IMG/VR virus record: IMGVR_UViG_3300006038_000004
Coordinates: 1-37,133 of that record
From: a virus
Strand: one strand, 5' to 3'
Length of the DNA stretch: 37,133 nucleotides
Position 1 is the stretch's first letter. The number at the start of each line of letters is the position of its first letter. This document shows, in pieces, positions 5,694 through 37,133 of this stretch. A program made the translations under genes and the position numbers. The notes under the pieces are model-generated. The model worked only from the letters and a program-made list of their open reading frames with translations, made no database searches and had not been told where the DNA came from.

Positions 5694-7238
5694 ATGGCTT
5701 TACAAACAATACCTGGTTTTACTGGTTTTTCCTATGCCAGGGTAGCTTCGATGGATAAACGTGCTGTAGGTAAGCTCACTGATACCAATCACCTAGAGTC
5801 TTTCCACACCACAGATCCTGCGGACTATGATAAGAAAATCATTTCCATTTATACACAGAGCTCATTGTATGCCAATGATTTCTTGGATATGATTAACAAG
5901 TCTACTCCGTTCTACATTGATACTAACTCTGATGCATGGCAATGGGAAGTAGAAGTACCCTACAAATTCCCTAAGATCATCGAAGTGCCAACCAGCACTT
6001 TAAACCTTACCACTCCAGGTATTGATGGTCAAGAATTCCAGTTTGTGATGGACTCTGCTGAGTTTACTCAGAATATGATCATCACGCCACATAAGATATA
6101 TGGTCAGAACTTTGCTATCATAAGAGATCCCCAACCTTTCAATATGGGATTCTTATACACTGCAACTCTTGTATCAAGTAATCCTAAAGTAGAATTCGTT
6201 GATCCTACTTTCCTTCAGCCTGGTATTGAGTTTACTCTTGTAAACCAATCAATAGGTGAGTTTGATGAAGATCTACCTGGTCTTCCTCGTATGGCTGAAA
6301 AGATTACTATGTATGAGTCTCTTGGATCAGCTGTAGGTTATAAACATACAATTACTGGTTGGGCAGATGACAGAATGCTTAAGAACTCAGATGGTATGCC
6401 TCTTGACTTGATGGTTTACATCAATGGTAAGAGAAATGAAAAACCTGTAACTAGGCATGACATCAGATGGGAGCCTTTCATTGAGTTCTGGATGAGAAAA
6501 GCAATGCTTGATCTGAAAGTACAGAAGATGATCTGGGGTAAACCAGGTATCGTGAAGACTAGAGGTTCTAAACAAGAAGTGAAGAAAGTATCTGCTGGTG
6601 TATATTACAGGATGAGAAATAACGGTAATCTTGTTCAATACAATAGAGGTGAATTCTCAACTAACATCTTCCGTGCAGTGTTTGGAGACTTGTTCTACAG
6701 ACGTGTGGATGTGAAAGATAGAAGAGTTAAAATATACACAAATGAAGCAGGCTTCGATGTGTTTGATCAAGCCCTTAAGGATGATGCTCTTAACAGCGGT
6801 CTTACTATCATTGCAGATACAAGATTTATTCAAGGTGCAGAGCAAAAACTGACCTTAAACTATGCCTTCTCAAGCATGGTAACTCGTGAGACAGGTAAAA
6901 TTGAGCTGGTTCACTTAAAAGAACTGGATTTACCTCAATCTAACTTAGAGTTTGGTCAGAATAAAAAGTCAACCCCTCTATTCCTTGTGTTCGATATTTC
7001 CCCTGAGGGAGATGGATCTCTGAGAAATAACATCAGAGAGGTGAGAATGAAAGGAAGACCTTCAATGACTTGGGGTTATATTGATGGCCGTAGAAATCAC
7101 AAAGGTGCTTTCGCTTCACAAGGTCACTCAGCAGCTAATATGTTCGATGGTTATACCATCTTCATGGATGATAGATACGATGTGTTTATTGAAGATTTAT
7201 CACGTTGTGTCGTAATAGAAGAAGTACCTCAGTTCTAA
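5694..7238 (+). CDS. Major capsid protein (HK97 fold, crAss-like)
   Basis: A 514-residue protein in capsid position after the scaffold gene; the size matches crAss-like capsid proteins of roughly 490-520 residues. The N-terminus (MALQTIPGFTGF) and the segments near residues 45-110 (FLDMINKSTPF, then WQWEVEVPYKFPK) are the kind seen in crAss-like capsid proteins, which form the icosahedral shell with an HK97 fold. The C-terminal third carries the GYIDGRRNHKGA segment. Codon use is less AT-biased and more uniform than in its neighbours, as expected for the most highly expressed gene. No cysteine-rich or Thr/Ser tract is present. A structured intergenic region follows it. Confidence 0.9.
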   Translation: MALQTIPGFTGFSYARVASMDKRAVGKLTDTNHLESFHTTDPADYDKKIISIYTQSSLYANDFLDMINKSTPFYIDTNSDAWQWEVEVPYKFPKIIEVPTSTLNLTTPGIDGQEFQFVMDSAEFTQNMIITPHKIYGQNFAIIRDPQPFNMGFLYTATLVSSNPKVEFVDPTFLQPGIEFTLVNQSIGEFDEDLPGLPRMAEKITMYESLGSAVGYKHTITGWADDRMLKNSDGMPLDLMVYINGKRNEKPVTRHDIRWEPFIEFWMRKAMLDLKVQKMIWGKPGIVKTRGSKQEVKKVSAGVYYRMRNNGNLVQYNRGEFSTNIFRAVFGDLFYRRVDVKDRRVKIYTNEAGFDVFDQALKDDALNSGLTIIADTRFIQGAEQKLTLNYAFSSMVTRETGKIELVHLKELDLPQSNLEFGQNKKSTPLFLVFDISPEGDGSLRNNIREVRMKGRPSMTWGYIDGRRNHKGAFASQGHSAANMFDGYTIFMDDRYDVFIEDLSRCVVIEEVPQF

Positions 7239-16573: not shown

Positions 16574-17800
16574 ATGTCTGACAATCAAGATCTTATAGAA
16601 CAGCTAAAGAGGCTGCTATCTCAAAAAAAATCAAAAGATTTCTACGCAAGAAAGCTTGGAATAACTCTTGAAGAGTTGAATGACCTGCTCAAAGTAACAA
16701 AAGGGAACTCTGGAAGAGTATCAGAAGATGAACTTTATAGCTTTTTGAAAATAGAAGAAGATGTGGAGAAGGAAGAAGCTGAAATTACGATTAATGTAAA
16801 GGAGCAAATTAGAACCCTAGAGGAGTTAATAGAGAAGTGCAAAATTGATACAAAGCTCTGGAACATAGATAGGTATGTACAGAATATATGGGGATCTCCT
16901 AGTAACCCCTCTTGGCAAGTGAAAGCTTGGTTGTCTAAGAAAACCCCAGTTGATAATTTCCAGAAAATTTTCATAGATTTCCTCAAGACCTATAAACCGT
17001 CTGTCTATGAACAGACTGCCCCAAGCACTGCCCCACACCTCCCCAAAGGGTGCCTAGTAATAAATAAACAAGACCAGCACTTAAATAAGTTTGATATATT
17101 AGGAAATAATTCCATGGGTAAGAGGTTCCATACGATATATGAAAGAACTAAGAGAATCCTTCACCAATCGACTACTTCAAACAGACTTGAAAAGATTTAC
17201 TATGTAATAGGAAGTGATCAGTTCAATGCAGAGTGGATGGGAACTACTACTAGGGGAACAAAGCAGGAAAACATTGATACCTACCATCAGAGCTTTGAAA
17301 GGATATGTAATCATGAAATAAATATGGTAAATCTCTTACTGAATCATTCAGGAGATGTAGAGATTATATACGTATCGGGAAATCATGATGAATATGCTGG
17401 ATGGCATCTAATAACTTGGCTGAAGGCTTACTATAATAGAACAGCAGGAGTAAAATTTGATACTTCCCCCAGGTATAGAAAATATGCAAGATATGGAAAA
17501 AATGCTATCATGTTTAACCATGGAGATGCTATCAAACCCCCAAAGCTTGCGAATATGTTCCCTATTGAGTTCAAGAATGAGTGGTCTAATTGTGATAACT
17601 ACTATATATTCACAGGTGATAAGCACCATGAAATAACCATGGACTTCCATGGAATTATGTTTTTCCAACTACCTGCTCTATCAAAAGCAAAATCCTTCTG
17701 GGATGATAAACAGGGACACACTTGCACTAAATCTGAGCTTGTGGCCTTTGTAATAGATGAAAATGATGGGGTGACAGGTATATTAAAGCAAAAAGTATAA
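16574..17800 (+). CDS. Calcineurin-like metallophosphoesterase with N-terminal helical region
   Basis: A 408-residue protein. Residues 1-60 are helical and may hold a helix-turn-helix-like segment (FYARKLGITLEEL, 23-35). Residues 160-395 contain the full metallophosphoesterase set: D167-x-H169, GSD215 with N218, GNHDE (269-273), NHGD (315-318) and GDKHH (348-352), the metal-binding order of calcineurin-like and SbcD/Mre11-type enzymes, so it should be active. Related enzymes occur at this place, inside the virion gene block, in crAss-like phages. The substrate is unknown: it could act on DNA ends or nucleotides during packaging or takeover. Its stop overlaps the next gene (TAATG). It is the first gene after the promoter at 16506. 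Confidence 0.82.
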   Translation: MSDNQDLIEQLKRLLSQKKSKDFYARKLGITLEELNDLLKVTKGNSGRVSEDELYSFLKIEEDVEKEEAEITINVKEQIRTLEELIEKCKIDTKLWNIDRYVQNIWGSPSNPSWQVKAWLSKKTPVDNFQKIFIDFLKTYKPSVYEQTAPSTAPHLPKGCLVINKQDQHLNKFDILGNNSMGKRFHTIYERTKRILHQSTTSNRLEKIYYVIGSDQFNAEWMGTTTRGTKQENIDTYHQSFERICNHEINMVNLLLNHSGDVEIIYVSGNHDEYAGWHLITWLKAYYNRTAGVKFDTSPRYRKYARYGKNAIMFNHGDAIKPPKLANMFPIEFKNEWSNCDNYYIFTGDKHHEITMDFHGIMFFQLPALSKAKSFWDDKQGHTCTKSELVAFVIDENDGVTGILKQKV

Positions 17801-18498
17801 TGGCAACCTTGAGACAAGTAGTTTCTCGTGTAAGATCACTTGACAAAATGTTGAATAGTGACAACACCATAACAGATAGAGTGATAGCCACTGAGCTTAA
17901 GAGCAAAGCTACGTTCTACATCAGGAGAGAAACTGATAAGAGAAAACTTTGGAACACTTCGACTATATTTACAAATATCCCTTGTGTGGAAATGACAGAA
18001 GTTCCAACGGCAGACTGCTGCGATTATGTTTCAGATCAGTATGTAGCAAGAAGTAAACATAAATTACCAAAGATCTCTGATGGTATATATGGACTCCTAA
18101 TACATGGTGTATTCTCTGTGGATAATTCAAGAAGGCTGAAAGAGATAACTCTAAGTAGATATATTAATCTCCTAAAGTTAGGATTGCCAACCAACGATAT
18201 ATACTATTGGATATATGATAGGTACTTATATATATCTTCCCCTAAGGTTGAAGTAGCCAGCATATGGGCCTATTTTGAAGAGGATGTATCGACTGACTTA
18301 CTTTATCCAGATTGTCCTTGTACAAGTCAAAACAAACCAAATCCCTGCACAAATCCTCTTGACCTAGAGTTTAAGTGCCCTGGGTATCTTGAAGATGTAG
18401 TAACTAAAGATTGCCTCCAAGTCCTACTCCAAACTTATTATAGAGTACCAGTTGATCATACATCAGATAACAAAGATGACCAAGTAAATAAAACATAA
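17800..18498 (+). CDS. Probable ring / tail-stabilisation protein
   Basis: A 232-residue protein coupled by TAATG to the phosphoesterase. The N-terminal 60 residues are helical and basic (LRQVVSRVRSLDKMLNSD). Residues 60-170 are beta-rich, including IYGLLIHGVFSVDN and the pair YYWIYDRYLYISSPKVEVASI, followed by a Cys-rich loop (CPCTSQNKPNPC) and a final helix. This layout, and its place before the muzzle gene, match the P22 gp4-like tail-stabilisation or ring proteins reported in crAss-like phages. It would sit between portal and tail. The family match is by pattern only. Confidence 0.55.
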   Translation: MATLRQVVSRVRSLDKMLNSDNTITDRVIATELKSKATFYIRRETDKRKLWNTSTIFTNIPCVEMTEVPTADCCDYVSDQYVARSKHKLPKISDGIYGLLIHGVFSVDNSRRLKEITLSRYINLLKLGLPTNDIYYWIYDRYLYISSPKVEVASIWAYFEEDVSTDLLYPDCPCTSQNKPNPCTNPLDLEFKCPGYLEDVVTKDCLQVLLQTYYRVPVDHTSDNKDDQVNKT

Positions 18499-19138: not shown

Positions 19139-20086
19139 ATGTCATATTACTACAAGTATAAGTTCGTATCACCCGATTCTCTTTTTGCAAGAGTAAAAGA
19201 AGAAATGAAAAGTTACTTCGATGCAAATGCAGTAGATGATCTGATGTTTCCTATATGGACTTCAAAATGCCTCCAAAAGCTGGGAAGATCTTCTTATAAG
19301 ATTGTCTCAGCATTGTTATTTATGGACAATTTTGAGGCTAAGCTCCCCCCTGATTTCATTGCCCCTAGGGAAGTTTGGCTAACTGCTGAGCTACTCTCAC
19401 CAACATTTAGAAAACCTGGTGCTTTCTACCAGAATATTACCACAGTATTAAATAAGCCATATGATCCGTGTGACCCTGCACTCAATTGTGATCCTTGCAA
19501 TCCTGACATAATTACTGTTGTAACAAAAACTCAGACAGAGGTTACTCAACCTATAAGATTAAAGTATCTCTTAACACCAGGTAACATACATTCAAAACAA
19601 GGATGTGATTCTTCTTTGGGATGTATGAATAGTAATGCCAGAGCTTTTGGGCTGTGTAAGGATGACCTCACATTTGATATAAGAGATGGCAAACTTGTCA
19701 CAAGTTTCAGGCAAGGTGATGTATTTCTTATATACTATTCAGATCAGAGAGATGATGCTGGGCAGCAATTAATACCCGACAATTACAGAATACAAGAGTT
19801 TATTGAAGCTTTTCTTAAACAGAAAGTGTTCGAACAACTGTACAATCAGGTAGTGGATGAGACCTTTAATCAGATTGAAAAAAAATATATCTTCTACAAG
19901 CAATTAGCAGATGAAGCTTATATACTAGCTGATATAGAGATCAAGAAAGAAACAATCTATAAGAAAGCTCAAAATATAAGGAAAGATAGACACAGATTTG
20001 ATCCTTACGCTGCAGCAATGTATGGAGATTCCTGGAGGTGGAGGGGAGGATCATGGCCAGCAAGTTCTTGGGGATTAAATAATTAA
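19139..20086 (+). CDS. Probable ring / tail connector protein
   Basis: A 315-residue protein one base after the preceding gene. The N-terminal half (SLFARVKEEMKSYFDANAVDD, then MFPIWTSKCLQKLGRSSYK) is helical, then comes a beta-rich body with a Cys-rich insert (DPCDPALNCDPCNPD, about residues 110-124), and a long C-terminal helix (about 215-285) with many Lys, Glu and Tyr residues. The protein ends in a Trp/Gly-rich tail (GDSWRWRGGSWPASSWG). Location directly before the muzzle gene and the long helix fit a ring protein stacked under the portal. No named domain is certain. Confidence 0.55.
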   Translation: MSYYYKYKFVSPDSLFARVKEEMKSYFDANAVDDLMFPIWTSKCLQKLGRSSYKIVSALLFMDNFEAKLPPDFIAPREVWLTAELLSPTFRKPGAFYQNITTVLNKPYDPCDPALNCDPCNPDIITVVTKTQTEVTQPIRLKYLLTPGNIHSKQGCDSSLGCMNSNARAFGLCKDDLTFDIRDGKLVTSFRQGDVFLIYYSDQRDDAGQQLIPDNYRIQEFIEAFLKQKVFEQLYNQVVDETFNQIEKKYIFYKQLADEAYILADIEIKKETIYKKAQNIRKDRHRFDPYAAAMYGDSWRWRGGSWPASSWGLNN

Positions 20087-23000: not shown

Positions 23001-25028
23001 AACATCTCATCGTACTATGCTTCAATCAAAAATATCGTTCCAGACCAATATGGACAAATTTACTCATATGAAGCAGTTGATACAGGTTTTCAAATGCAAG
23101 TTAATCTGGGGGATCAAACTCCTGGAAGCGGTCTTAGGGATATATTTGGAGGTGATACCTTCATTAATAAGTTTGCTCTAAAGAGAAAATTACCATTCTT
23201 TATAGACAATAGGGTAAATTTCCCAGACGATTCTGATATATTCTATGATGAGTTAGGTAATGTGGGTTTTCCAAAGTATTGGTTCTCAACTGATGTAAGA
23301 AGAGGTGATGGGGGAGCTTTCAATATAGGTTCCTTGTTTGGAGTAAAAGTGCATAATTTTGATTGTGCCAATTCTGCATTCTTTTATGATGCAGGGAAAA
23401 TTTATCTCTTTGCCTATGGTATTATCAATTTCTTTGTTGAGAGCCAAGTGAATGTAGATCTTAGGCAAGCATATAACAATAAGGAGGGGGATTATTTCCC
23501 TCATGTTGGAGGGGATGTTCCTGATCAATGGCTTCAGGAAGCATTTGTTCCTATTGCTTTTGATAATACATATACTTATAATAAGACCTTCTCAAAGCAA
23601 AATATTGAAAATGTCTTTACTACCCTACCTGTGGATTTTGATCCAACTCAAAGCTGTATATACAGGTTCCCTAATAGAGGGATTTATTCAGAAAAGCAAC
23701 AAGATGTTATAAATTACAAGAAAAATAACTGGAGGATCTACAGGCCTGCCGCAGTATATGATTTTCCTCTAAACTATGGTAAGCTCATTTCTATAGATGG
23801 CATAGAAACAAGAATGCTACTTGCTAGATTTGAGAACAGGGCTCAGGTTTATAATGCTCTTCTTACTGCTAATTCATCAATTGCCGAAGTATATCTTGGT
23901 CAGCAGATCTTCAATCCTAGTGTTCCTCCAGTAGACTTTGTAAGTAGTGATTTAGGGTATACCGGAAGCCAAAATAAGTTTCTTCTACAGACTGAATTTG
24001 GCCATATATGGGTAGATGCCCTTAGGGGGGATGTGTTCTTAATGCAGGGACAAAGCATCAATGATATTTCCAATGAGGGAGTTAAAATGTTCTTAACCAA
24101 TAACTTACACTTCCAAATTAAAGATGCTTTCCCTGAGTATGATATAGATAATAATTTTAAGGGAGTAGGCCTACATGGAGTATATGATAACAAATATAAC
24201 AGGCTCCTCATCACAAAGCTTGATTTCAAGCCTATTGTTAGTGGAATTACGTATAATAGCTCAACAGATGTTTTCTCCTATGCCGGAGAAGAGATTGAAC
24301 TTGGAGACCCAGCCTATTTCTGCGATATATCCTTTACTATTTCATATTCTTTTATATCAAAATCATGGATATCATTCCACAGTTACTTGCCAAACTTCTA
24401 TATAGGATCAACTAGTAAATTCTATACAGGAAGGAAAGATCTTGAATCAGTATGGTTACACAATACAGTAGAAAACAAGTACAATGAGTTCTATGGGGAA
24501 GTAGCGCCATATATCTTAGAGCAACCTTTTGCATATAAATATCAAGATGAAATACTACAGTCTGTAAAGGACTATAGTAAAGTAAATGTGATGACTAATG
24601 CACAAACCTTTGTACAGACAGATAAAGCATTCTTTAACAAGGCTATCATATATAATGATCAGCAATGTACAGGGGTTCTTAATCTTGTAGCAAAACCATC
24701 AAACAATCTATCATCATATCTGCAATACCCTAAATATAACTCTGATAGCAGAGATATACTCTTCGTCAAATCAGATAATTTCTATAACTATAATGGATTC
24801 TGGGATATTGTAAATGATTACACAGAGCCTATCTGGCTGCCAGATTGTACAGCAAGTACAGAAAACAAAGTATTAAATGATTCTAATCTGAACTACACCA
24901 ACAGGTCTTTTAAGAAGTACCCCCTGAGGGCAAAGGATTGTAGGATAAGGCAGATACTAGATAATAGGACAGATGTGAGAATAACATCTCAATTTATCGC
25001 TACAGAAACTCAAACCTCTTATAAGTAA
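20094..25028 (+). CDS. Muzzle-type tail protein (1644 aa)
   Basis: A very large beta-rich protein at the position of the crAss-like tail 'muzzle' or DNA-stabilisation protein. The N-terminus (IRPNNAYLGMNLDSIISQVK, then GQVTFAQNAQTAGFEG) follows the pattern of those proteins, which start with a strand that docks on the tail hub and then form beta-propeller-like repeats. Repeated strand motifs such as DGLPIYDSGGL and DNTYTYNKTFS support a mainly beta protein. It likely plugs or lines the tail exit and holds packaged DNA. There is no hydrolase motif visible. Seven bases separate it from the previous gene; its stop overlaps the next start (TAATG). This gene alone is 13 percent of the window. Confidence 0.75.
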   Translation: MGEIRPNNAYLGMNLDSIISQVKPGQVTFAQNAQTAGFEGNMIVYQNEQANEICFMIPSGYKVIGTHNIVERDIIIIFLVNPTTGESEIGKVVGCTYSTIINATCLNFNLNNPIQKVVHKITNCSTEVYWVDGANHMRFIDLNNLPFREIVQGTGTNPCDVVTSSEIDCNKLNVRPNFSIPQVTYRSVESEGTTIAGDYQFAIQYTNSLGEAYTSYYSVTNPIPIYDKFIVSPNFNYPVGKSIILDIENIDTSGVFDFINVAVIKTINDISSVDIVGTYQIQGSKMTITYTGQSKSGVTGTIEEIFEKFPVYDTAGDVTTVQDILVFADLTSTQRISYQKIANQIKLQWVSWKMPHIQGQYADELNAANLRGYMRDEVYAFDVVFILKNGYQTDRFHIPGRAPISSDLTIISNGDSNFGQSICDEVEGKPRWQVYNTATLQGVDTNYDSTNVCYQGPYQYGNFSYWESTETYPCNEPVWGNLQGRPIRHHKFPDSSVTHHHDSAGNIFPLGVRLDSTAIFQLIKDSELTQEQKDNIAAIKIVRSNRAASKSVIAKGLLYNVGRYAKGDSIYYYPNYPFNDLRPDPFILNASNTDIGAQIFSSFESVQNISVTRTLMYSMPTVENLWKSAGDIVTVVYQGSFGRTTKNKKHLIVTWDGLPIYDSGGLAVGSTDQFSLTITLKRTGSNRIDITSRLQVFGQNTIDKKTTNFVNGVDFSIAHTIDLYAQAPVEIAIPPIPGEDGDITATSIVAGYKAAPILFGADLNLLNGFNSAESKNRYTFHSPDTSFYQPFLGTQLKLESVEFGTTRSHFVQVDKHAKYRFPSLQSYLTALGVGIAIGFASGTYGVSTNPFNGAAAFTAFQVFNDIVFRLLPKRNMTYSFNSLGNYTTPKILPNDTGNKIRMLDIAAYLISGVQGVGDIHIVNNYQRESSVYLRTTDTLPYPNTIAGVPEDNSRFTLGQVGCVENFYTRNISSYYASIKNIVPDQYGQIYSYEAVDTGFQMQVNLGDQTPGSGLRDIFGGDTFINKFALKRKLPFFIDNRVNFPDDSDIFYDELGNVGFPKYWFSTDVRRGDGGAFNIGSLFGVKVHNFDCANSAFFYDAGKIYLFAYGIINFFVESQVNVDLRQAYNNKEGDYFPHVGGDVPDQWLQEAFVPIAFDNTYTYNKTFSKQNIENVFTTLPVDFDPTQSCIYRFPNRGIYSEKQQDVINYKKNNWRIYRPAAVYDFPLNYGKLISIDGIETRMLLARFENRAQVYNALLTANSSIAEVYLGQQIFNPSVPPVDFVSSDLGYTGSQNKFLLQTEFGHIWVDALRGDVFLMQGQSINDISNEGVKMFLTNNLHFQIKDAFPEYDIDNNFKGVGLHGVYDNKYNRLLITKLDFKPIVSGITYNSSTDVFSYAGEEIELGDPAYFCDISFTISYSFISKSWISFHSYLPNFYIGSTSKFYTGRKDLESVWLHNTVENKYNEFYGEVAPYILEQPFAYKYQDEILQSVKDYSKVNVMTNAQTFVQTDKAFFNKAIIYNDQQCTGVLNLVAKPSNNLSSYLQYPKYNSDSRDILFVKSDNFYNYNGFWDIVNDYTEPIWLPDCTASTENKVLNDSNLNYTNRSFKKYPLRAKDCRIRQILDNRTDVRITSQFIATETQTSYK

Positions 25029-25306
25029 TGGCAAAAAGTACAGGAGGAGGAAAGAAACCCCCACAGTATGTAAATGATCCAAGCTTACAAGCTTTATCTG
25101 ATATACTTCTTTGGAAGAGCAGAAATAAGAACTTTATTGATAGAGCTGTGCACCCTGAAGATAAGCCTGCCATTCAAACAAATACTTTACCCGGTTTACA
25201 GAACGAAGGAATTCCTGATTTTGTAAAATCTACTCATCTCATGGCTCATGATTTGGATAGATTTTCTGGAAAGGGAAGAGTATATCCAATGTTGGTGCAG
25301 GACTAG
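25028..25306 (+). pseudogene. N-terminal part of a cargo/virion protein, cut by a frameshift
   Basis: This 92-residue frame starts in TAATG at the muzzle stop. It begins with a basic, Gly-rich stretch (MAKSTGGGKKPPQYVNDP) and then carries the first half of a domain common in phage virion proteins: THLMAHDLDRFSGKGRVYPM (about residues 70-89). It stops at TAG just after this. The second half of the same domain (GLEYLSPVAAYNYANDSGEY, then DLAEYFSKQGYK) continues in the -1 frame without a stop into the next gene. One extra G at about 25300 would join the two into a 1394-residue protein. Either this copy is mutated, the sequence has a missing base in a G run, or translation shifts frame. Confidence 0.6.
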
Positions 25307-25413
25307 AATATCTCAGCCCTGTAGCTGCATATAATTATGCAAATGATAGTGGGGAGTACGTAGAGACCCCTAGTTATGATTTAGCTGAATATTTCTCTAA
25401 GCAGGGCTATAAA
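25261..25413 (+). other. In-frame upstream extension of the 25414 gene (frame junction)
   Basis: The frame of the gene starting at 25414 is open from 25261 (last stop TAG at 25258-25260), so the two frames overlap at 25261-25306. The text from about 25300 onward completes the domain begun in the other frame. A heptamer of the -1 slippery form X XXY YYZ (A AAG GGA, 25270-25276) lies in the overlap in the right phase, but a shift there would lose the conserved RVYPMLVQ segment, so a single-base deletion nearer 25300 fits better. Confidence 0.6.
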
Positions 25414-28400
25414 ATGGCATCTGACAATTTATATGGAACTAATTATAAAGATTACATGAAAAATAAAAATGGTGGCAAAATACCAAAAGGGAAGGCAGGG
25501 TACTTCTTACAGGTAGATCCTAAAAAGCTTCTGTATGAAGATCTACCATGCCCCGGATGTAAAAAGAATCTGATGGCAGAATATGGGATGTACATGGACC
25601 CTGGTCCAAGAATACCTGGCTTAGCCCAAAGTGTATCAGATTATTATGGAGGATACCCTGAAAGCGACCTTGCTTTTTCCAAGGTACAGGGCCCTGTTCC
25701 AATAGGGACTCCTCCTGATACATCAAAGGTAAAACCTGGAAAACCACTAGGGGCAAAGGATCTTCGACCACCAAAACCTACTAAAGGAGGAGGCTTTAAT
25801 GCAGGTAATGTAGCTCTTGCTGCTATGACAGCATTTGATGCAATATTACCAAATAGAGTATCCAAGCAACAGGTAGTACAACCTCAAATGGCTTATAATC
25901 CTATGTCTTATGGGTATGGTTCTCAAGCTCTTGAACATGGAGGATCTATACCTGCAGCTAAAAATGGCAAAGCAATGAAATCAAAAAAGAAGATTAAGAA
26001 ATATGATGATGGAGGATTGGCCCCAGCTCTGTTCGGATTGATGGATGCATTCTATGGAGAGCTAGGCAATGCAAAGCAGGGTTTGATGAATGCTTTTACA
26101 GGAGGGGCAGGCGGTGCTCTTGGTGGAGCAGGAGGTGGGGGTCTAAGTGCCCTTGCTGGTGCAATGGAACAAGGTGGTATGGTAGAAGCAAAAGATGGTC
26201 ATTGGATTCAGAAGGCAGTAAATCCTAAGCATAAAGGATACTGTACTCCAATGACTAAATCAACTTGCACTCCCAAGAGAAAAGCTCTTGCCAAGACTTT
26301 TAAAAAGCATCATGGATTCCATAAAAATGGTGGTATTATTCCTGATAACATGAGTATATTTAGTCCTCATGAATATGAACAGGGAGGTAATGTGAACGGG
26401 GGAGCAAAAATCAATATGGTGGATGGAAACTTTCCCAACACTGATCTAATGGAGCAATGGTTGCTTTATAATGATGGTGGAAATGTCAATGGAGGGGCCC
26501 AAGTAAGAGAAGTAGGAGCCACCTATCCAAATACAGATATGCTAGAACAATGGCTACTATATGCCCATGGGGGTAATGTAAATGGTGGTGCTAATATAAG
26601 AGAGGTTGGGGCGCAATACCCCAATACAGACCTTATGGAGCAGTGGCTTCTATATAAAGATGGCGGAACTCTAAGTGCTGATAAAGCAAAAGAAATGCTT
26701 AGGGATGGTACTGCTCATGGTAAAAAGCTTACCAAAAAGCAGAAACAATACTTCGGTATGGTAGCTGCGGGAAAAGCTCCTACAGGTTTAACACTTGATG
26801 GAACTGGAGATCCAGCTTCTAAAAACCCTTTATCTCCACAAGAAGCCTATTACCAGTCTAGTGCTAAATTATCATATTACAAAGATCTACTTAATCAAAA
26901 ATTAAAAGCTAAGAACCCACAAGCTTTCCAAGATTACTTCAAAGGACTGGTAGATCTAAGAAGATCAGGCAATAGCACAGGTGCAGATAAATATGTTCAA
27001 GATACTAAATATGATGAATATCTTACCCCCCAAGAGGTTCAAACTGCCCTAGGGGAAAGATATAAAGACTACCTGGAAAGCATCAAAAATGTGAATGGGT
27101 ATAATGTTTCTCAAGGTAGACAACCATTATATGGTACTGTAGAGGGGCAGAACGATTTAAGTAATCTTAATTACGGTAGAAGATTTGCAAGTTTGCAGAT
27201 AACTCCTTCATTTGCAGCTCATAATAAAGATAAAAATACAGATTATAGTAGATCATATAGCTATAACCCTCAAACAAATCAGGTTGATTTTACTGAAACA
27301 GGAGATATGAAGCTTAAGCCAGATTATCTAAGTAACAGAACTACACCTACTGTTACTTATAAAAATGGTGGAGTGATGTATGATGATGGAGGATCTATTG
27401 ATACAATGTGGGGAGGAAGTGCCGACCTGGAGAGCTACAATCCCTATGATGGAGGTACTGTGGAGTTCAGTGGTGATTCACATGCCCAGGGGGGTATAGG
27501 AATGGCCTATAATGGAAATCCAGTTGAAGTAGAAGGAGGTGAATATGCTTCAAAAGATGATTCTGGAAACCTTACCATATATGGAAATATGTTCATACCA
27601 GGAACAAAGACAAAGTTCAAAAAGGCAGCAAAAGCAATAGCTGGTAAAGAAAAAAGATATGATATGCTGGCTACCAAAGGCTCTGATCTTGTAAATAATT
27701 CTAACCCAGCAAGTAAGTTTGACCAGCTTAAGTTTAATGCAGGAAGAGTTATGATGGAAGGTGGGCAAATGGGAATGGCAGATCTAAGCTCAAAGAAAGA
27801 GAAGCTTGCTTCACTCCAAAGAGCTATGCTTGATATGGCTGAACAGCACGGCCTTGATCCTCATGCAATGTCACAGGGGAAGATGAAGAAAGCTAAGAAA
27901 GGAGCATCTATTCCTTTTTATCAAGAAGGAGGTAGTGATCCAGATAGTAATGATCCTACACGAGCTGATAGAAACAACAACCCAGGGAACATAAAATATG
28001 GAAAGTTTGCACAAAAATATGGTGCTAAAAAAGACAAAGATGGTTTTGCTATCTTCCCTGACAGAAAAGTGGGTGAAAAAGCTATGCAAGAGCTCTTATT
28101 AAGTGATAGTTATAAGAACCTACCTGTTAGTCAAGCAATTAAAAAATGGACAGATGGGCACCCTTATAGATATGATCTAGGCCCACTGACTGATAAAACA
28201 GTAAGTGAACTTGGCCCAGATGAGCTTTCTATAGTGCTTTCCACTATGAAGCAAGGTGAAGGGACAAGATATGGAATGACCCCAAGACCAATTCCTAAAA
28301 CACCATCAAGGACGCCTACACCTAGAACTCCTACCCCTAGTTCATTTACCCCTTACACTATACCTGAAATGAGTGTCACTCCAGAAAATCCGAATATCCA

Positions 28401-29211
28401 ACCTGTGAACCCAGTACCACCTTATGATAAATTAGAAGTTCCTACAAGAAAACCTATCAGAAGCAATGTAGAAGGTTTGCATTTGACGCAAATTCTACCT
28501 GAACTGTATGCTGCAGCAACCAATAAAGTAGAGCCTGTGCCTACACAAAGGTATGAGCCTCAGTTATATGCACCTTATCAGGTTAGTTTCCAGGACAGAC
28601 AGAATGCTAACCAATCTGCGTTTAATGCGCAGATGAGAACTGTTGGAGGATCTAATCCAGCAGCTCTTGGTACTCTTGCTGCACAAAAATATCAGGCAGA
28701 TCAAGCAGTACTAGGAGATGAGTTTAGAACTAATCAGGCAATTGCTAATGATATTACCAACAAAAATATAGCTCTTGTGAATGATGCTAATATGAAGAAT
28801 TTGGGAATAGCTGATACTCAAATGGTTAGACAATCTCAAGCTAGATCTAAAACTAGAAATCTTAATCAATTGATAATTAATAGCTTGTCTGACAAATATT
28901 CTCAAAATGAATTTGAGAATAAGAGGCTTGCAGCATATGAAAATCTGTATGACTACAGATTTGTACCTCAATCTGATGGTGGCCTATCTGCAACCTACTT
29001 TGGACCCAATGCAATGTTTAACTATAATGGTAAAGCATCACAGAATAGTAATACTCCCTCAAGGACTATTAGTAGATATGATGCCCAGGGGAACCTTAAG
29101 GGGTATGCTGAATATGATGATTCTGATTTGAAAGATTATCAAAGAATGCTTCAGGTAATGAAGCTTGAGAGAACTAATCCTCTAATGCAAGTTCCGCCTC
29201 TCAATAAGTAA
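25414..29211 (+). CDS. Large virion cargo-type protein with repeats and NNPGN domain
   Basis: A 1265-residue protein from this ATG, though its true N-terminus probably lies in the frameshifted gene upstream. Residues 120-320 are Gly/Ala/Lys-rich with short basic blocks (KSKKKIKKYDDGG). Residues 324-416 are three tandem 31-residue repeats ending EQWLLY. Residues about 680-790 hold a domain with SGDSHAQGGIGMAYNG and VEVEGGE, seen in virion proteins of Bacteroidota phages. Residues 850-950 begin RADRNNNPGNIKYG, a motif of lysozyme-like or virion-associated domains, followed by a Pro/Thr-rich linker and a helical C-terminus. I infer a cargo or ejection protein that may touch the cell wall. Catalytic activity is not shown. 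Confidence 0.6.
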   Translation: MASDNLYGTNYKDYMKNKNGGKIPKGKAGYFLQVDPKKLLYEDLPCPGCKKNLMAEYGMYMDPGPRIPGLAQSVSDYYGGYPESDLAFSKVQGPVPIGTPPDTSKVKPGKPLGAKDLRPPKPTKGGGFNAGNVALAAMTAFDAILPNRVSKQQVVQPQMAYNPMSYGYGSQALEHGGSIPAAKNGKAMKSKKKIKKYDDGGLAPALFGLMDAFYGELGNAKQGLMNAFTGGAGGALGGAGGGGLSALAGAMEQGGMVEAKDGHWIQKAVNPKHKGYCTPMTKSTCTPKRKALAKTFKKHHGFHKNGGIIPDNMSIFSPHEYEQGGNVNGGAKINMVDGNFPNTDLMEQWLLYNDGGNVNGGAQVREVGATYPNTDMLEQWLLYAHGGNVNGGANIREVGAQYPNTDLMEQWLLYKDGGTLSADKAKEMLRDGTAHGKKLTKKQKQYFGMVAAGKAPTGLTLDGTGDPASKNPLSPQEAYYQSSAKLSYYKDLLNQKLKAKNPQAFQDYFKGLVDLRRSGNSTGADKYVQDTKYDEYLTPQEVQTALGERYKDYLESIKNVNGYNVSQGRQPLYGTVEGQNDLSNLNYGRRFASLQITPSFAAHNKDKNTDYSRSYSYNPQTNQVDFTETGDMKLKPDYLSNRTTPTVTYKNGGVMYDDGGSIDTMWGGSADLESYNPYDGGTVEFSGDSHAQGGIGMAYNGNPVEVEGGEYASKDDSGNLTIYGNMFIPGTKTKFKKAAKAIAGKEKRYDMLATKGSDLVNNSNPASKFDQLKFNAGRVMMEGGQMGMADLSSKKEKLASLQRAMLDMAEQHGLDPHAMSQGKMKKAKKGASIPFYQEGGSDPDSNDPTRADRNNNPGNIKYGKFAQKYGAKKDKDGFAIFPDRKVGEKAMQELLLSDSYKNLPVSQAIKKWTDGHPYRYDLGPLTDKTVSELGPDELSIVLSTMKQGEGTRYGMTPRPIPKTPSRTPTPRTPTPSSFTPYTIPEMSVTPENPNIQPVNPVPPYDKLEVPTRKPIRSNVEGLHLTQILPELYAAATNKVEPVPTQRYEPQLYAPYQVSFQDRQNANQSAFNAQMRTVGGSNPAALGTLAAQKYQADQAVLGDEFRTNQAIANDITNKNIALVNDANMKNLGIADTQMVRQSQARSKTRNLNQLIINSLSDKYSQNEFENKRLAAYENLYDYRFVPQSDGGLSATYFGPNAMFNYNGKASQNSNTPSRTISRYDAQGNLKGYAEYDDSDLKDYQRMLQVMKLERTNPLMQVPPLNK
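26383..26661 (+). repeat. Three tandem 93-bp repeats in cargo gene
   Basis: Units at 26383-26475, 26476-26568 and 26569-26661 each encode 31 residues beginning GGNVNGGA and ending EQWLLY plus two residues. Units 2 and 3 share REVGA-x-YPNTD; unit 1 differs there (NMVDGNFPNTD). The DNA differs at many third positions, so the duplications are not recent and the protein sequence is probably under selection. There are no spacers, so it is not CRISPR. Confidence 0.92.
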
Positions 29212-31960: not shown

Positions 31961-34900
31961 ATGCCACTACCAGAACAAGATATATTACAGCAAGGTGATG
32001 TATTGGCTGCACAAAGAAACCCAGGATTTGAAACAGAAGCATTGCCTTCACCTGCAGGATTTGAAGCTCCTGAGATAGCTCCTATTCCTATTCCAGGAAC
32101 AGGTCTAGTAGAAAGTGGAGGACAAGCACAAGAGGCTTATCTGAGCAAGTTCAATAGATCCATTCTAGGAACTAGAGATAGAGTTACTCCTGGAGACTTG
32201 CCAAATTATAGTGTATCAGATGTTTACAATCCAAGATATCGCTCCATTCTCCCTGGGGAGGATAGTGAGGAGGCATTTGCAAAGGCACAACCTTGGTTCA
32301 AACAGTGGGGAAATGCAATTGCTAAGATGTCAGCAACTGCTGCTGGTACATTTGTAAATGGGATAATGGCTATTCCAGATGGTATTTCAGGTAATCCCTA
32401 CAATACCACAATGGGCAATTCTATAGACACCTGGCTTAAGAATCTGGAAGATACCTTTCCGAACTACTATACAAAATGGCAGCAAGATCACCCATTTATG
32501 TCAGCACTACCTTTCTCAGGAGGGTTCTCTAACTTTTGGGGAGACAAATTTCTAAAGAATATTGGATTTACAATAGGAGCCATTGGTTCAGCTGTGGCTC
32601 AAGATGCAGCAATAGGTCTTGCAACTGGAGGTATTGGTGAAATCCCTATGATCGGTTCGCAGATAGGTAAAGCTTCTCTATGGCTAAATAAGATATTTAC
32701 TGGAACTAACAAAGCTGACCAATTACTTCAATTAGGAAGGGCTACAGGGAGAACTGGTGAGCAATTGATAGACTTAAAGAACCTGGCACAAGCTGCTGCT
32801 GGTACAAAAGTAGTTAATGGAGCAAGATATGCAATGAATCTATATGGTTCTGCTGCTTCTGAGGCAGGATTTGAAGCCAGAGATGCTTACAATACAATCA
32901 GAGATGATCTGATGAAGGACTTCCAGAAAGAGAAAGGGTACTCTGCAACTGGCAAAGATCTTGAAAACATTGAGAGATATGCTAAAGCAGCAGGTAATGT
33001 GAGATTTGGAGCTAATTTGGCCCTTTTATCTATATCAAATGCCCTACAGTTTGATGCTTTCATGAAGCCATTTAGTGCTGCTAAGGCCGGATTCAGATCT
33101 AGTATTGAGAGAGATATTAGTACAAAATCAATGATAGGCCTAAAACAAGGCTCAGTAGATGCCTTTGAAAACATTCCTAAGAGTATGTGGGGAAAGATAA
33201 GACCCTTTGTACCTGCTGTGCTGGCAGAAGGTGTGTTTGAGGAAGGTGGTCAGTATGCTACTCAAATAGCAGTTGAGAACTTTTATGAAAGAAAATATCT
33301 ATATGACAAAGGTCTAGCAAAATCTTCTTATTCAAAAGATGAGACACCTTTTGATGCAAGAGATCAGGTAAAAAATGTAGTGCATTCAGTTGTACAAGGC
33401 CTTAAAGATGAATTCTCTACTGATGAAGGTTTAGAAAATGTATTACTTGGATCTCTAACAGGTGTTGTATTTGCAGGTGGTGAGAGAGTAATGGATAGGC
33501 TGTTCAATAAAGACAGTGATGCTAAACTTACTCATGCTACTCTGTCTCTTCTGAACTCCCAGGGGGTAACTGGTATCTTGCAAAATCATTATGATAATGC
33601 CGCTGCTGCTCATAGAATCACTGAAGATATGAAGCAGGCAGTTAAAGATAATGATTTATTTAAATATAAGAATTTCCAACATGAGCAGTTTGTAAAGTTT
33701 ATTACATCTGGTGTAAAAGCTGGTAGATTTGATGTGAGAATGGAGCAGTTAAAAATGCTCAAAGAGATGGATAATGAGGAGTTTAAGAAAGCTTTCGGAT
33801 TAGATAAAACTAATGATAATGTAAAGACTGCTGATGAATATGTAGATGTTCTGATTCAAAAAGCACAGAAAATCAAGAAGTCTTATGACCTAATAAATGA
33901 TACTTTCACTAATCCTTTTAGAAATAATCCGAAAGATAGTACCCCTGAGGGGGCAGAAGAAGCCCTTAAGCATAACACTTTCGAAGGTTGGAAGGATGAT
34001 CTTGCATTTCTTGCTTCCATCAATTCAGATGTTGATGCAAGATTGGATTCTATTGGTAGAGATCTAAGAACCATAAACCCAAACTTAGACCATTACCATG
34101 TAGCTAATTTCACAGATAGAAAGTATCTTAAAAATTATGCTAATTCCCTGGAACAAGAGGTAAAAGGTCTGCAAGGTCTTGTGGATCAAAAAGCATCGGC
34201 AGATCCTAATGCTGATAAAAATAGAATAAAGTCACTACAAGCGAAGGTTCAGCTAATAAATAACTATCTAACAGATCCCAATTTCTCTGAGAAAAGATTT
34301 GAAGGAACTTTTAAAAACCTTCTCCAATTCCATTTAAATGGTCAACAGGACGTTGGTAATGTTCAGATTCCTCAGGAAGCATTACCTAAGCTTATTGAAT
34401 ATGGTAGAGATGTTCAGAGATTAAGACAGTATAGAGATAGTGCTAATAAAGCTTTTGATAAGCTTTCTACAGAAGAAGGCTTCAATAGATATTTTAGAGA
34501 AGCTTTTAATGCTCAAAGTAAGTATTCAGAACAAGCTCCCCCTGTTTCTCCTACACCTCCAGGAGAAACTCCTCCTCCAAATGATGGGACTCCTCCTAAG
34601 CCACCAGCTCCTAAACCAATAGGGGTGAAGGACAAAGCAGGAAAAACTACCAACTATGATCCTAATAAAGAGTACTACGTAAATATAGAAAAGGGAAAGG
34701 AGCCTGTAAAAGCTTTTGTTATTGAGCAAAAGCCTGATGGTAAAGTAGTTGTACAAACTGCTGAGGGTGATTCCCATGAAGTTGATCAGGATATTTTCTT
34801 TGCAAAAGATGAAAATGCACAGAAGGTTAAAGATGAAATAGATACTAATACTTCAAAGGAGGATATACCCCCACCTACTCCTACAGAGGATACAGGTACT

Positions 34901-37133
34901 AAAGAGGGGCCAATGAAGAAAGATCTGAGCTTTGGTCTTTATTCTACTACTGATCCTGTATATTCAAGACAGGATGTGCCTTTTGATAACTTTCATAGAA
35001 GACATCAGAATTTCCTATTTGATATGGGATCTTCTAACCCAGATGTATTTAATCAGGATAATAAGCCTAAGTTAAGGATTATTCCTGTTACATCTAAAAC
35101 TGCCCAGGCCCTTGGTTTCCCTGAAGATTTTATTCAAGAGCAGCCCAAGGAGGATAATATATTCAGGAGTCCTAGTAGATATACTTCAAACGATGCTCCT
35201 GTTATCTCCGTTGATGATGTAGATTTTGAAAAAAGTGGTCTTGAGGACATATCAGGATTTAAGAAAGTTAGATTATTAGAAATAAGAGGGATAAATGCTG
35301 AAGGATTTCCTGTAGGCACTGTGCTAGTTAGCATTAGAAATGAGGATGGGAGTTATGGAAATGTTGTACTTGAAGTATTCTTTAAAAAAGATGCTGGAGC
35401 AACATCAAATGCTGATAACGCTACTATTAGAGCTGTCTATATAGTAGATGATACTGTAGATCCTGTAAAAAGAAGAAGGCAAAGGGCTAGTATTCTTAGT
35501 GCCATTGCAAATAGTAAGGTTGTACCTCCTCAGCTAAAAGAGCAAGCAAAGAATAACCCAGACAAATTTATCCAGGAAGCATATGAGCAAGCCAGAGATG
35601 CAGCAGGAGCAGAGGAACAACTTGGAGAAAAGTTAGTAGACAAATTACTTGAATATGGCGGTCAGGGTATCTTCTTTGTAGATTCCAAAGGAGATAAAAT
35701 GGGAAGAGTGGGAGAACCAGTAGACCCTAATAAAGCCATCTTCTCAACATTTGCTTCCACTGATCTTACCTTCCAGGCTTCCCCTGGGGTAAGTGAGGAA
35801 AGATACACAAATAAGGACAATATTGATGAGTCGGCTGCTAAAGATTGGTGGAGAAGTACAAGAGAGGGAATCCTATCAATCTCTACCCCTGAGGGTGCAA
35901 TGCAAAGAACTTATCAATTTGCAGTAAGTAGAGGTATTCCAAATGTTATAAACAAAGGATCAAGAAATAATCCTATTACTGTAGGCCTAATTAGAGAAAG
36001 GGATCTTGATAAACCTATCATTACTCTACCTACCCTTGGGGATGTGGCAGTAATGGGGGCTTTTAATCAGGAAGGAGAAGGTATTGCTTCTTCTAAACAA
36101 GGAGTGAAAATGCCTCTGGGAACTCCATTATTAAACTATGGAGGAAACCTAATATACCTAAATGCTAGAAAATTCACAAAGGAGGAGACTATCAATATCT
36201 TTGAGATGTTAAAAATCATCTCCGATAGAAATAGAACTACCGAATCTGGACCCATTTTCAAATACCTGCACAAGGTAATTTATATGGCTAACCCAGAAAA
36301 GAATATTGCTCCTACTGCCAGCTCTATAACAATTGACAAGTTTGGAAATTTATATCTGGGCACAAATCAGAACCCTGTACAACTTCTTCCACAAGCCTTG
36401 GAAGATAACAAGGAAAGAATTATGACCTTCCTTGAAGGGGCATACCATAATATCAAGAACAGTGAACTCTTAAGGATTCAGAGAGATCCTAAAGCAAATG
36501 ATCTTGAATTTGCTGAACTTAAAGCTGAAAACGGTAGAATAGAAGTTGTTAACAGATGGAAGAATTATAACTACTATCTTCTGTCAAACAGAACTCCAGA
36601 TGGTAAGTTGAGAACTAATGAGCCTCTGGCTACTAATATTTTAGTTCCACAAGAAGGTGAAAAACCAATAGTTCAGAAATACTCTGAGATCCTGAGCTTT
36701 GATTTTGATCCTTCTAAGTTCATGAGACCCAAGACTGTAGAAGAGCAGAGGGTTGAAGAGAATCCTGAGATTACTGCTACAGATGCTAGGGCAGCTCTTG
36801 CCAAAGTTATTGCAGATGCAAGGCTGGTTGGAATGTCTATTGATAACCTACTTTCCCTTAGGGAAGTGTATGCAGGGGATGATAATCTGTCTGATAAGCA
36901 GAAATCTCAACTTGCAGGGGCCGTTGATACTCTAATAGAGCATATACAGAAGAAAAATGAAGAGCAAGGAGTTCAGCAGCAGGAAGTTAGAGAAGAAGTG
37001 AAACCAATAACTTCTCCTGAAGTAGTTACTACTAAAGAAGAAAACACTCACAAAACTCTGGTATTAAGGAAAGATACCTCAATGGGTGATCAGTTAGATT
37101 TAACTGATAGTGATTGGAGGGAGCTTGAAGAAG
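31961..37133 (+). CDS. Giant virion protein, 5' part (3' end outside window)
   Basis: This frame starts at ATG 31961 and stays open to the window end: 1724 codons without a stop. Residues 1-180 are mixed with Pro-rich stretches (PIPIPGTGLVESGGQ). Residues about 200-230 (FTIGAIGSAVAQDAAIGLATG) and 496-508 (LLGSLTGVVFAGG) are hydrophobic and could insert in a membrane during ejection. Residues 520-840 are helical and charged. Residues about 859-888 are Pro-rich (TPPGETPPPNDGTPPKPPAP). The rest is mixed alpha/beta. In crAss-like phages giant genes here encode ejected cargo, and one nearby carries a virion RNA polymerase; its DFDGD-type motif is not present in the visible part. The role is inference from position and size. 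Confidence 0.6.
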   Translation, partial: MPLPEQDILQQGDVLAAQRNPGFETEALPSPAGFEAPEIAPIPIPGTGLVESGGQAQEAYLSKFNRSILGTRDRVTPGDLPNYSVSDVYNPRYRSILPGEDSEEAFAKAQPWFKQWGNAIAKMSATAAGTFVNGIMAIPDGISGNPYNTTMGNSIDTWLKNLEDTFPNYYTKWQQDHPFMSALPFSGGFSNFWGDKFLKNIGFTIGAIGSAVAQDAAIGLATGGIGEIPMIGSQIGKASLWLNKIFTGTNKADQLLQLGRATGRTGEQLIDLKNLAQAAAGTKVVNGARYAMNLYGSAASEAGFEARDAYNTIRDDLMKDFQKEKGYSATGKDLENIERYAKAAGNVRFGANLALLSISNALQFDAFMKPFSAAKAGFRSSIERDISTKSMIGLKQGSVDAFENIPKSMWGKIRPFVPAVLAEGVFEEGGQYATQIAVENFYERKYLYDKGLAKSSYSKDETPFDARDQVKNVVHSVVQGLKDEFSTDEGLENVLLGSLTGVVFAGGERVMDRLFNKDSDAKLTHATLSLLNSQGVTGILQNHYDNAAAAHRITEDMKQAVKDNDLFKYKNFQHEQFVKFITSGVKAGRFDVRMEQLKMLKEMDNEEFKKAFGLDKTNDNVKTADEYVDVLIQKAQKIKKSYDLINDTFTNPFRNNPKDSTPEGAEEALKHNTFEGWKDDLAFLASINSDVDARLDSIGRDLRTINPNLDHYHVANFTDRKYLKNYANSLEQEVKGLQGLVDQKASADPNADKNRIKSLQAKVQLINNYLTDPNFSEKRFEGTFKNLLQFHLNGQQDVGNVQIPQEALPKLIEYGRDVQRLRQYRDSANKAFDKLSTEEGFNRYFREAFNAQSKYSEQAPPVSPTPPGETPPPNDGTPPKPPAPKPIGVKDKAGKTTNYDPNKEYYVNIEKGKEPVKAFVIEQKPDGKVVVQTAEGDSHEVDQDIFFAKDENAQKVKDEIDTNTSKEDIPPPTPTEDTGTKEGPMKKDLSFGLYSTTDPVYSRQDVPFDNFHRRHQNFLFDMGSSNPDVFNQDNKPKLRIIPVTSKTAQALGFPEDFIQEQPKEDNIFRSPSRYTSNDAPVISVDDVDFEKSGLEDISGFKKVRLLEIRGINAEGFPVGTVLVSIRNEDGSYGNVVLEVFFKKDAGATSNADNATIRAVYIVDDTVDPVKRRRQRASILSAIANSKVVPPQLKEQAKNNPDKFIQEAYEQARDAAGAEEQLGEKLVDKLLEYGGQGIFFVDSKGDKMGRVGEPVDPNKAIFSTFASTDLTFQASPGVSEERYTNKDNIDESAAKDWWRSTREGILSISTPEGAMQRTYQFAVSRGIPNVINKGSRNNPITVGLIRERDLDKPIITLPTLGDVAVMGAFNQEGEGIASSKQGVKMPLGTPLLNYGGNLIYLNARKFTKEETINIFEMLKIISDRNRTTESGPIFKYLHKVIYMANPEKNIAPTASSITIDKFGNLYLGTNQNPVQLLPQALEDNKERIMTFLEGAYHNIKNSELLRIQRDPKANDLEFAELKAENGRIEVVNRWKNYNYYLLSNRTPDGKLRTNEPLATNILVPQEGEKPIVQKYSEILSFDFDPSKFMRPKTVEEQRVEENPEITATDARAALAKVIADARLVGMSIDNLLSLREVYAGDDNLSDKQKSQLAGAVDTLIEHIQKKNEEQGVQQQEVREEVKPITSPEVVTTKEENTHKTLVLRKDTSMGDQLDLTDSDWRELEE

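Follow-up and report, generated by a model that had tools for sequence, protein, structure and literature searches.

The window, positions 1 to 37,133 of IMG/VR virus record IMGVR_UViG_3300006038_000004, can be assigned from its protein sequence matches to the crassviruses (order Crassvirales). Specifically, it encodes the crassvirus major capsid protein (PF23898, Crass_capsid, E 5.6e-33, window 5694-7238), tail ring proteins 1 and 2 (PF24228, E 8.6e-13, 19139-20086, and PF25702, E 3.7e-17, 17800-18498), and a P22-type portal. Among GenBank phage records, only that of the cyanobacterial Leptolyngbya phage Lbo-JY46 has a similar capsid protein, at 24% identity. The structural module is colinear with that of the nearest relative, G001 (L002, L040 and L041), at 70-96% protein identity. 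An ORF with no Pfam match, 1724 amino acids or longer, occupies positions 31961-37132 and runs off the end of the contig; its place suggests that it is a virion RNA polymerase-type crassvirus protein. The region of concern here (Table 1) lies upstream of this ORF and begins with a 1644-residue gene that has no Pfam match and is called muzzle by position only, to which the cargo-position gene is joined by a stop/start overlap.

Table 1. Features at and around the frame break, in window coordinates (L002, IMGVR_UViG_3300003323_000567; L004, IMGVR_UViG_3300025914_000009).
Feature	Position	Strand	Remarks
Muzzle-position virion protein, 1644 aa	20094..25028	+	Stop overlaps the ATG of ORF92
ORF92 (92-aa frame)	25028..25306	+	N-terminal ~2/3 of the accessory domain; stop TAG 25304-25306
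AAAGGGA heptamer	25270..25276	+	Correct phase; conserved residues lie downstream of it
Frame junction	25298..25306	+	Placed by homology; beside the zero-frame stop; slippery motif absent
-1 frame, C-terminal third of the domain (GLEYLSP...GEYVETPSYDLAEYFSKQGYKMASDNLYG)	25300..25455	+	Upstream of or overlapping possible internal starts
First ATG of the -1 frame, start of the 1265-aa ORF	25414..25416	+	Context typical for starts of this phage
Second internal ATG	25456..25458	+	Protein begins where the domain-less L002 protein begins
Cargo-position gene, 1265 aa, modular, glycine-rich	25414..29211	+	Main body conserved in L002, L004 and L003

The 92-residue frame, ORF92, ends in ...GKGRVYPMLVQD followed by the stop. 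The first-pass annotation had put this stop right after GKGRVYPMLVQ, and the stop is indeed nearby, but a residue, D, stands between VQ and it. The same annotation described a -1 frame open from 25261 into the 1265-residue gene, which is what the sequence contains, and no ATG, GTG or TTG was found in that frame before 25414. Its further proposal, that the two frames carry the halves of one domain, is borne out by a profile HMM of about 130 residues, which was built from 12 other phage sequences with the window left out. ORF92 matches columns 14-86 of this profile (E 3e-8) and the -1 frame matches columns 85-122 (E 1e-3), so that the two matches abut, and among all six-frame ORFs of the window only these two pass the inclusion threshold. 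The frame split in the window sequence is real.

Using L011 and alignment queries, we identified relatives of the domain in viral contigs; they form a modest set, mostly distant, at about 30-46% identity. Checking them for a single frame, as the first-pass annotation had advised, we found the domain in one open frame in every one of 40 loci on 18 distinct viral contigs, none of them a same-species relative; 39 of these loci span the profile from column 20 or earlier to column 118 or later, and the remaining one spans columns 6-116. Searches of Pfam, PHROGs and the PDB with the domain found no family, those of the phage GenBank collection and of genome contigs gave no match, and viral contigs queried with the window's own two halves yielded no close copy. 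AlphaFold models of the domain are of low confidence (mean pLDDT 56.8 for L011 and 49.5 for L036).

To place the point where the frames meet, every codon at which one frame could pass into the other was tried as the join, and the domain HMM was used to score the result. The best joins fall at 25298-25303 (51.1 and 51.0 bits), compared with 40.8 bits for a join at the AAAGGGA heptamer. Codon usage independently shows a phase switch, with its optimum at about 25279-25293, and the -1 frame is strongly gene-like from 25300 on, ahead of any possible start codon. Reading the stop TAG as glutamine was also considered and rejected, as read-through at TAG 25304 keeps the zero frame whereas the homology continues in the -1 frame; such recoding would moreover need four read-through TAGs up to 25459.

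The accessory domain is absent from the nearest relatives, G001 (L002) and G003 (L004), as well as from other relatives, and the stop/start overlap with the muzzle-position gene is likewise where their cargo-position gene begins. The domain is thus an accessory N-terminal insertion. The start of the L002 protein, MAKKINKKKAPKAKAGYWLQV, aligns with window MAK...KNKNGGKIPKGKAGYFLQV, such that its first residues correspond to MAK of the window joined to KNKNGGKIPKGKAGY. In the explanation that we prefer, the cargo-type gene has gained an extra domain of about 130 residues just behind its original start codon. In L003 (4296-8435) and L045 (5726-7008) the cargo-position proteins have a different N-terminal module with a HEMSHG or HEFSHA stretch, which is zinc-metalloprotease-like, although in Pfam it is SprT-like for L003 only (E 0.05). 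As the N-terminus may thus have no module (L002 and L004), the HEMSHG/HEFSHA module, or the present domain, it looks like a swap site for accessory modules in crassvirus cargo-position proteins. The N-terminal part of the cargo protein of phiCrAss001, gp45, is expected to exit the virion first (PMC10172136).

Two further features of the cargo-position gene were noted. A stretch within window 25261-29211, GHWIQKAVNPKHKGYCTPMTKSTCTPKRKALAKTFKKHHGFH, is found again, with about 41-90% identity, in genes of other phage contigs (L005-L015) that are otherwise not close to the window region, and it is a second widely shared small domain. At residues of about 375-470 of the cargo-position protein (P0002) there are three near-repeats in a row, GGNVNGGA.I.(M/E)V....PNTD(L/M)(M/L)EQWLLY, which are present in L002 too.

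We propose that the accessory domain of the window is interrupted by an unprogrammed frame break, either a recent mutation or a sequencing or assembly error, and we give this reading a probability of about 0.87; this and the weights behind our wording for the alternatives are judgements and not computed values. An error or a real mutation were the first two options of the first-pass annotation, and both stand. The third, that AAAGGGA keeps programmed frameshifting alive, is contradicted at that site. A programmed -1 shift, at the heptamer or near the stop, would join the frames and yield a short and a long product, and in its favour the heptamer has the correct phase, as had been claimed (it reads A_AAG_GGA), it is the sole in-phase XXXYYYZ heptamer within ORF92, and the coding character of the -1 frame persists before any start codon. 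However, the heptamer lies about 25 nt upstream of the junction defined by homology, which itself has no slippery motif. A join at the heptamer replaces the conserved RVYPMLVQ with KSISNVGA, at a cost of about 10 bits, so a shift there cannot yield the domain as it is in relatives. The downstream RNA folding is unremarkable (z -0.62 to -1.62, in a model without pseudoknots), and none of the 40 domain loci on 18 contigs has the two-frame arrangement. The heptamer also has G at Y, which breaks the classical rule of A or U as quoted in PMC10885494, although that study's own phage data did not show this limit. We judge AAAGGGA to be a chance match, and programmed frameshifting to be improbable. 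A lineage-specific, non-canonical shift beside the ORF92 stop, by which the cargo protein would be made with and without its N-terminal accessory domain, is very improbable.

It is also very improbable that the locus holds two genuine, separate genes by design, one for a 92-residue protein and one for the 1265-residue cargo protein. In its favour, the start context of ORF92 is very good and internal ATGs are present. Yet from 25300 to 25413, ahead of any start codon, the -1 frame is conserved and gene-like, and in none of the other 40 loci is the domain split.

As to the origin of the unprogrammed break, we judge a recent real mutation to be barely more probable than a pure sequencing or assembly error, in which case the real gene would be continuous and the break confined to this contig. 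In favour of an error, some 31 kb of coding DNA contains just this one break, no window gene up to 31957 being frame-broken elsewhere relative to colinear G001 (70-96% identity); the domain shows no other decay, and the contig is one record of an uncultured virus. Against an error, no homopolymer at the junction exceeds two bases, and homopolymers are where indel errors are most frequent. In addition, the break lies in one of the small number of stretches that the nearest relative does not share. The domain accounts for 1.35% of the coding DNA, and the stretches unaligned with G001 for 5.5% in total, so that chance would seldom place an error there; this is mild support for a real mutation that is tolerated. 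On the other hand, a long-standing broken domain should carry a second lesion. The domain has none, which counts against our preferred reading, and upstream of 25414 the codon usage of the -1 frame is no less gene-like than in other parts and so shows no decay; both favour either an error or an event that is very recent.

Under our preferred reading of an unprogrammed break, then, a recent event with a net change of -1 at about 25298-25306 would have interrupted the accessory domain. If the break is real, initiation at 25028 would give a truncated product of 92 residues, and the main cargo protein would be made from the internal ATG at 25414 or 25456, giving the form without the domain that the nearest relatives have. 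The start contexts of these two ATGs lie within the range of the real starts of this phage, being outscored by about 8-11% of other ATGs, where the median for a real start is about 7%. The phage could probably live with such a break, because a protein begun at 25456 would again be the domain-less one, and because the nearest relatives lack the domain its loss need not be harmful. If the break is instead a sequencing or assembly error, there would be one long protein with its domain intact. The importance of the locus is mainly one of annotation, in that automatic gene calling gives a spurious 92-residue orphan and a cargo gene without its N-terminal domain.

These observations may be set against three known systems. 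The phage genes with programmed -1 frameshifting, for example those of tail assembly chaperones, likewise have an in-phase XXXYYYZ heptamer upstream of a stop and a downstream frame at -1, but the window's heptamer is off the homology junction, has no standout structure, and its arrangement is not conserved. crAss_CARG1 (PF25725) is the portal-bound domain of crassvirus cargo protein 1, the protein represented by gp45 of phiCrAss001. The product of the window gene is, like that protein, large, modular and of virion type, and the gene directly follows a large one that is called muzzle by its position. Two proteins in which Pfam finds crAss_CARG1 (L008/G007 and L029/G020) also have the accessory domain, which in part supports the earlier suggestion of a virion cargo-type domain. 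No match to PF25725 was found in the window, however, so that its gene is called cargo by position; it is also larger (1265 residues or more) and carries another N-terminal accessory domain, which is broken. The third comparison is with the domain-less cargo-position genes of L002 and L004, which differ in being unbroken and in lacking the N-terminal domain of about 130 residues, and which share with the window a colinear structural module (70-96% amino acid identity for the L002 record), the stop/start overlap and the main body of the protein.
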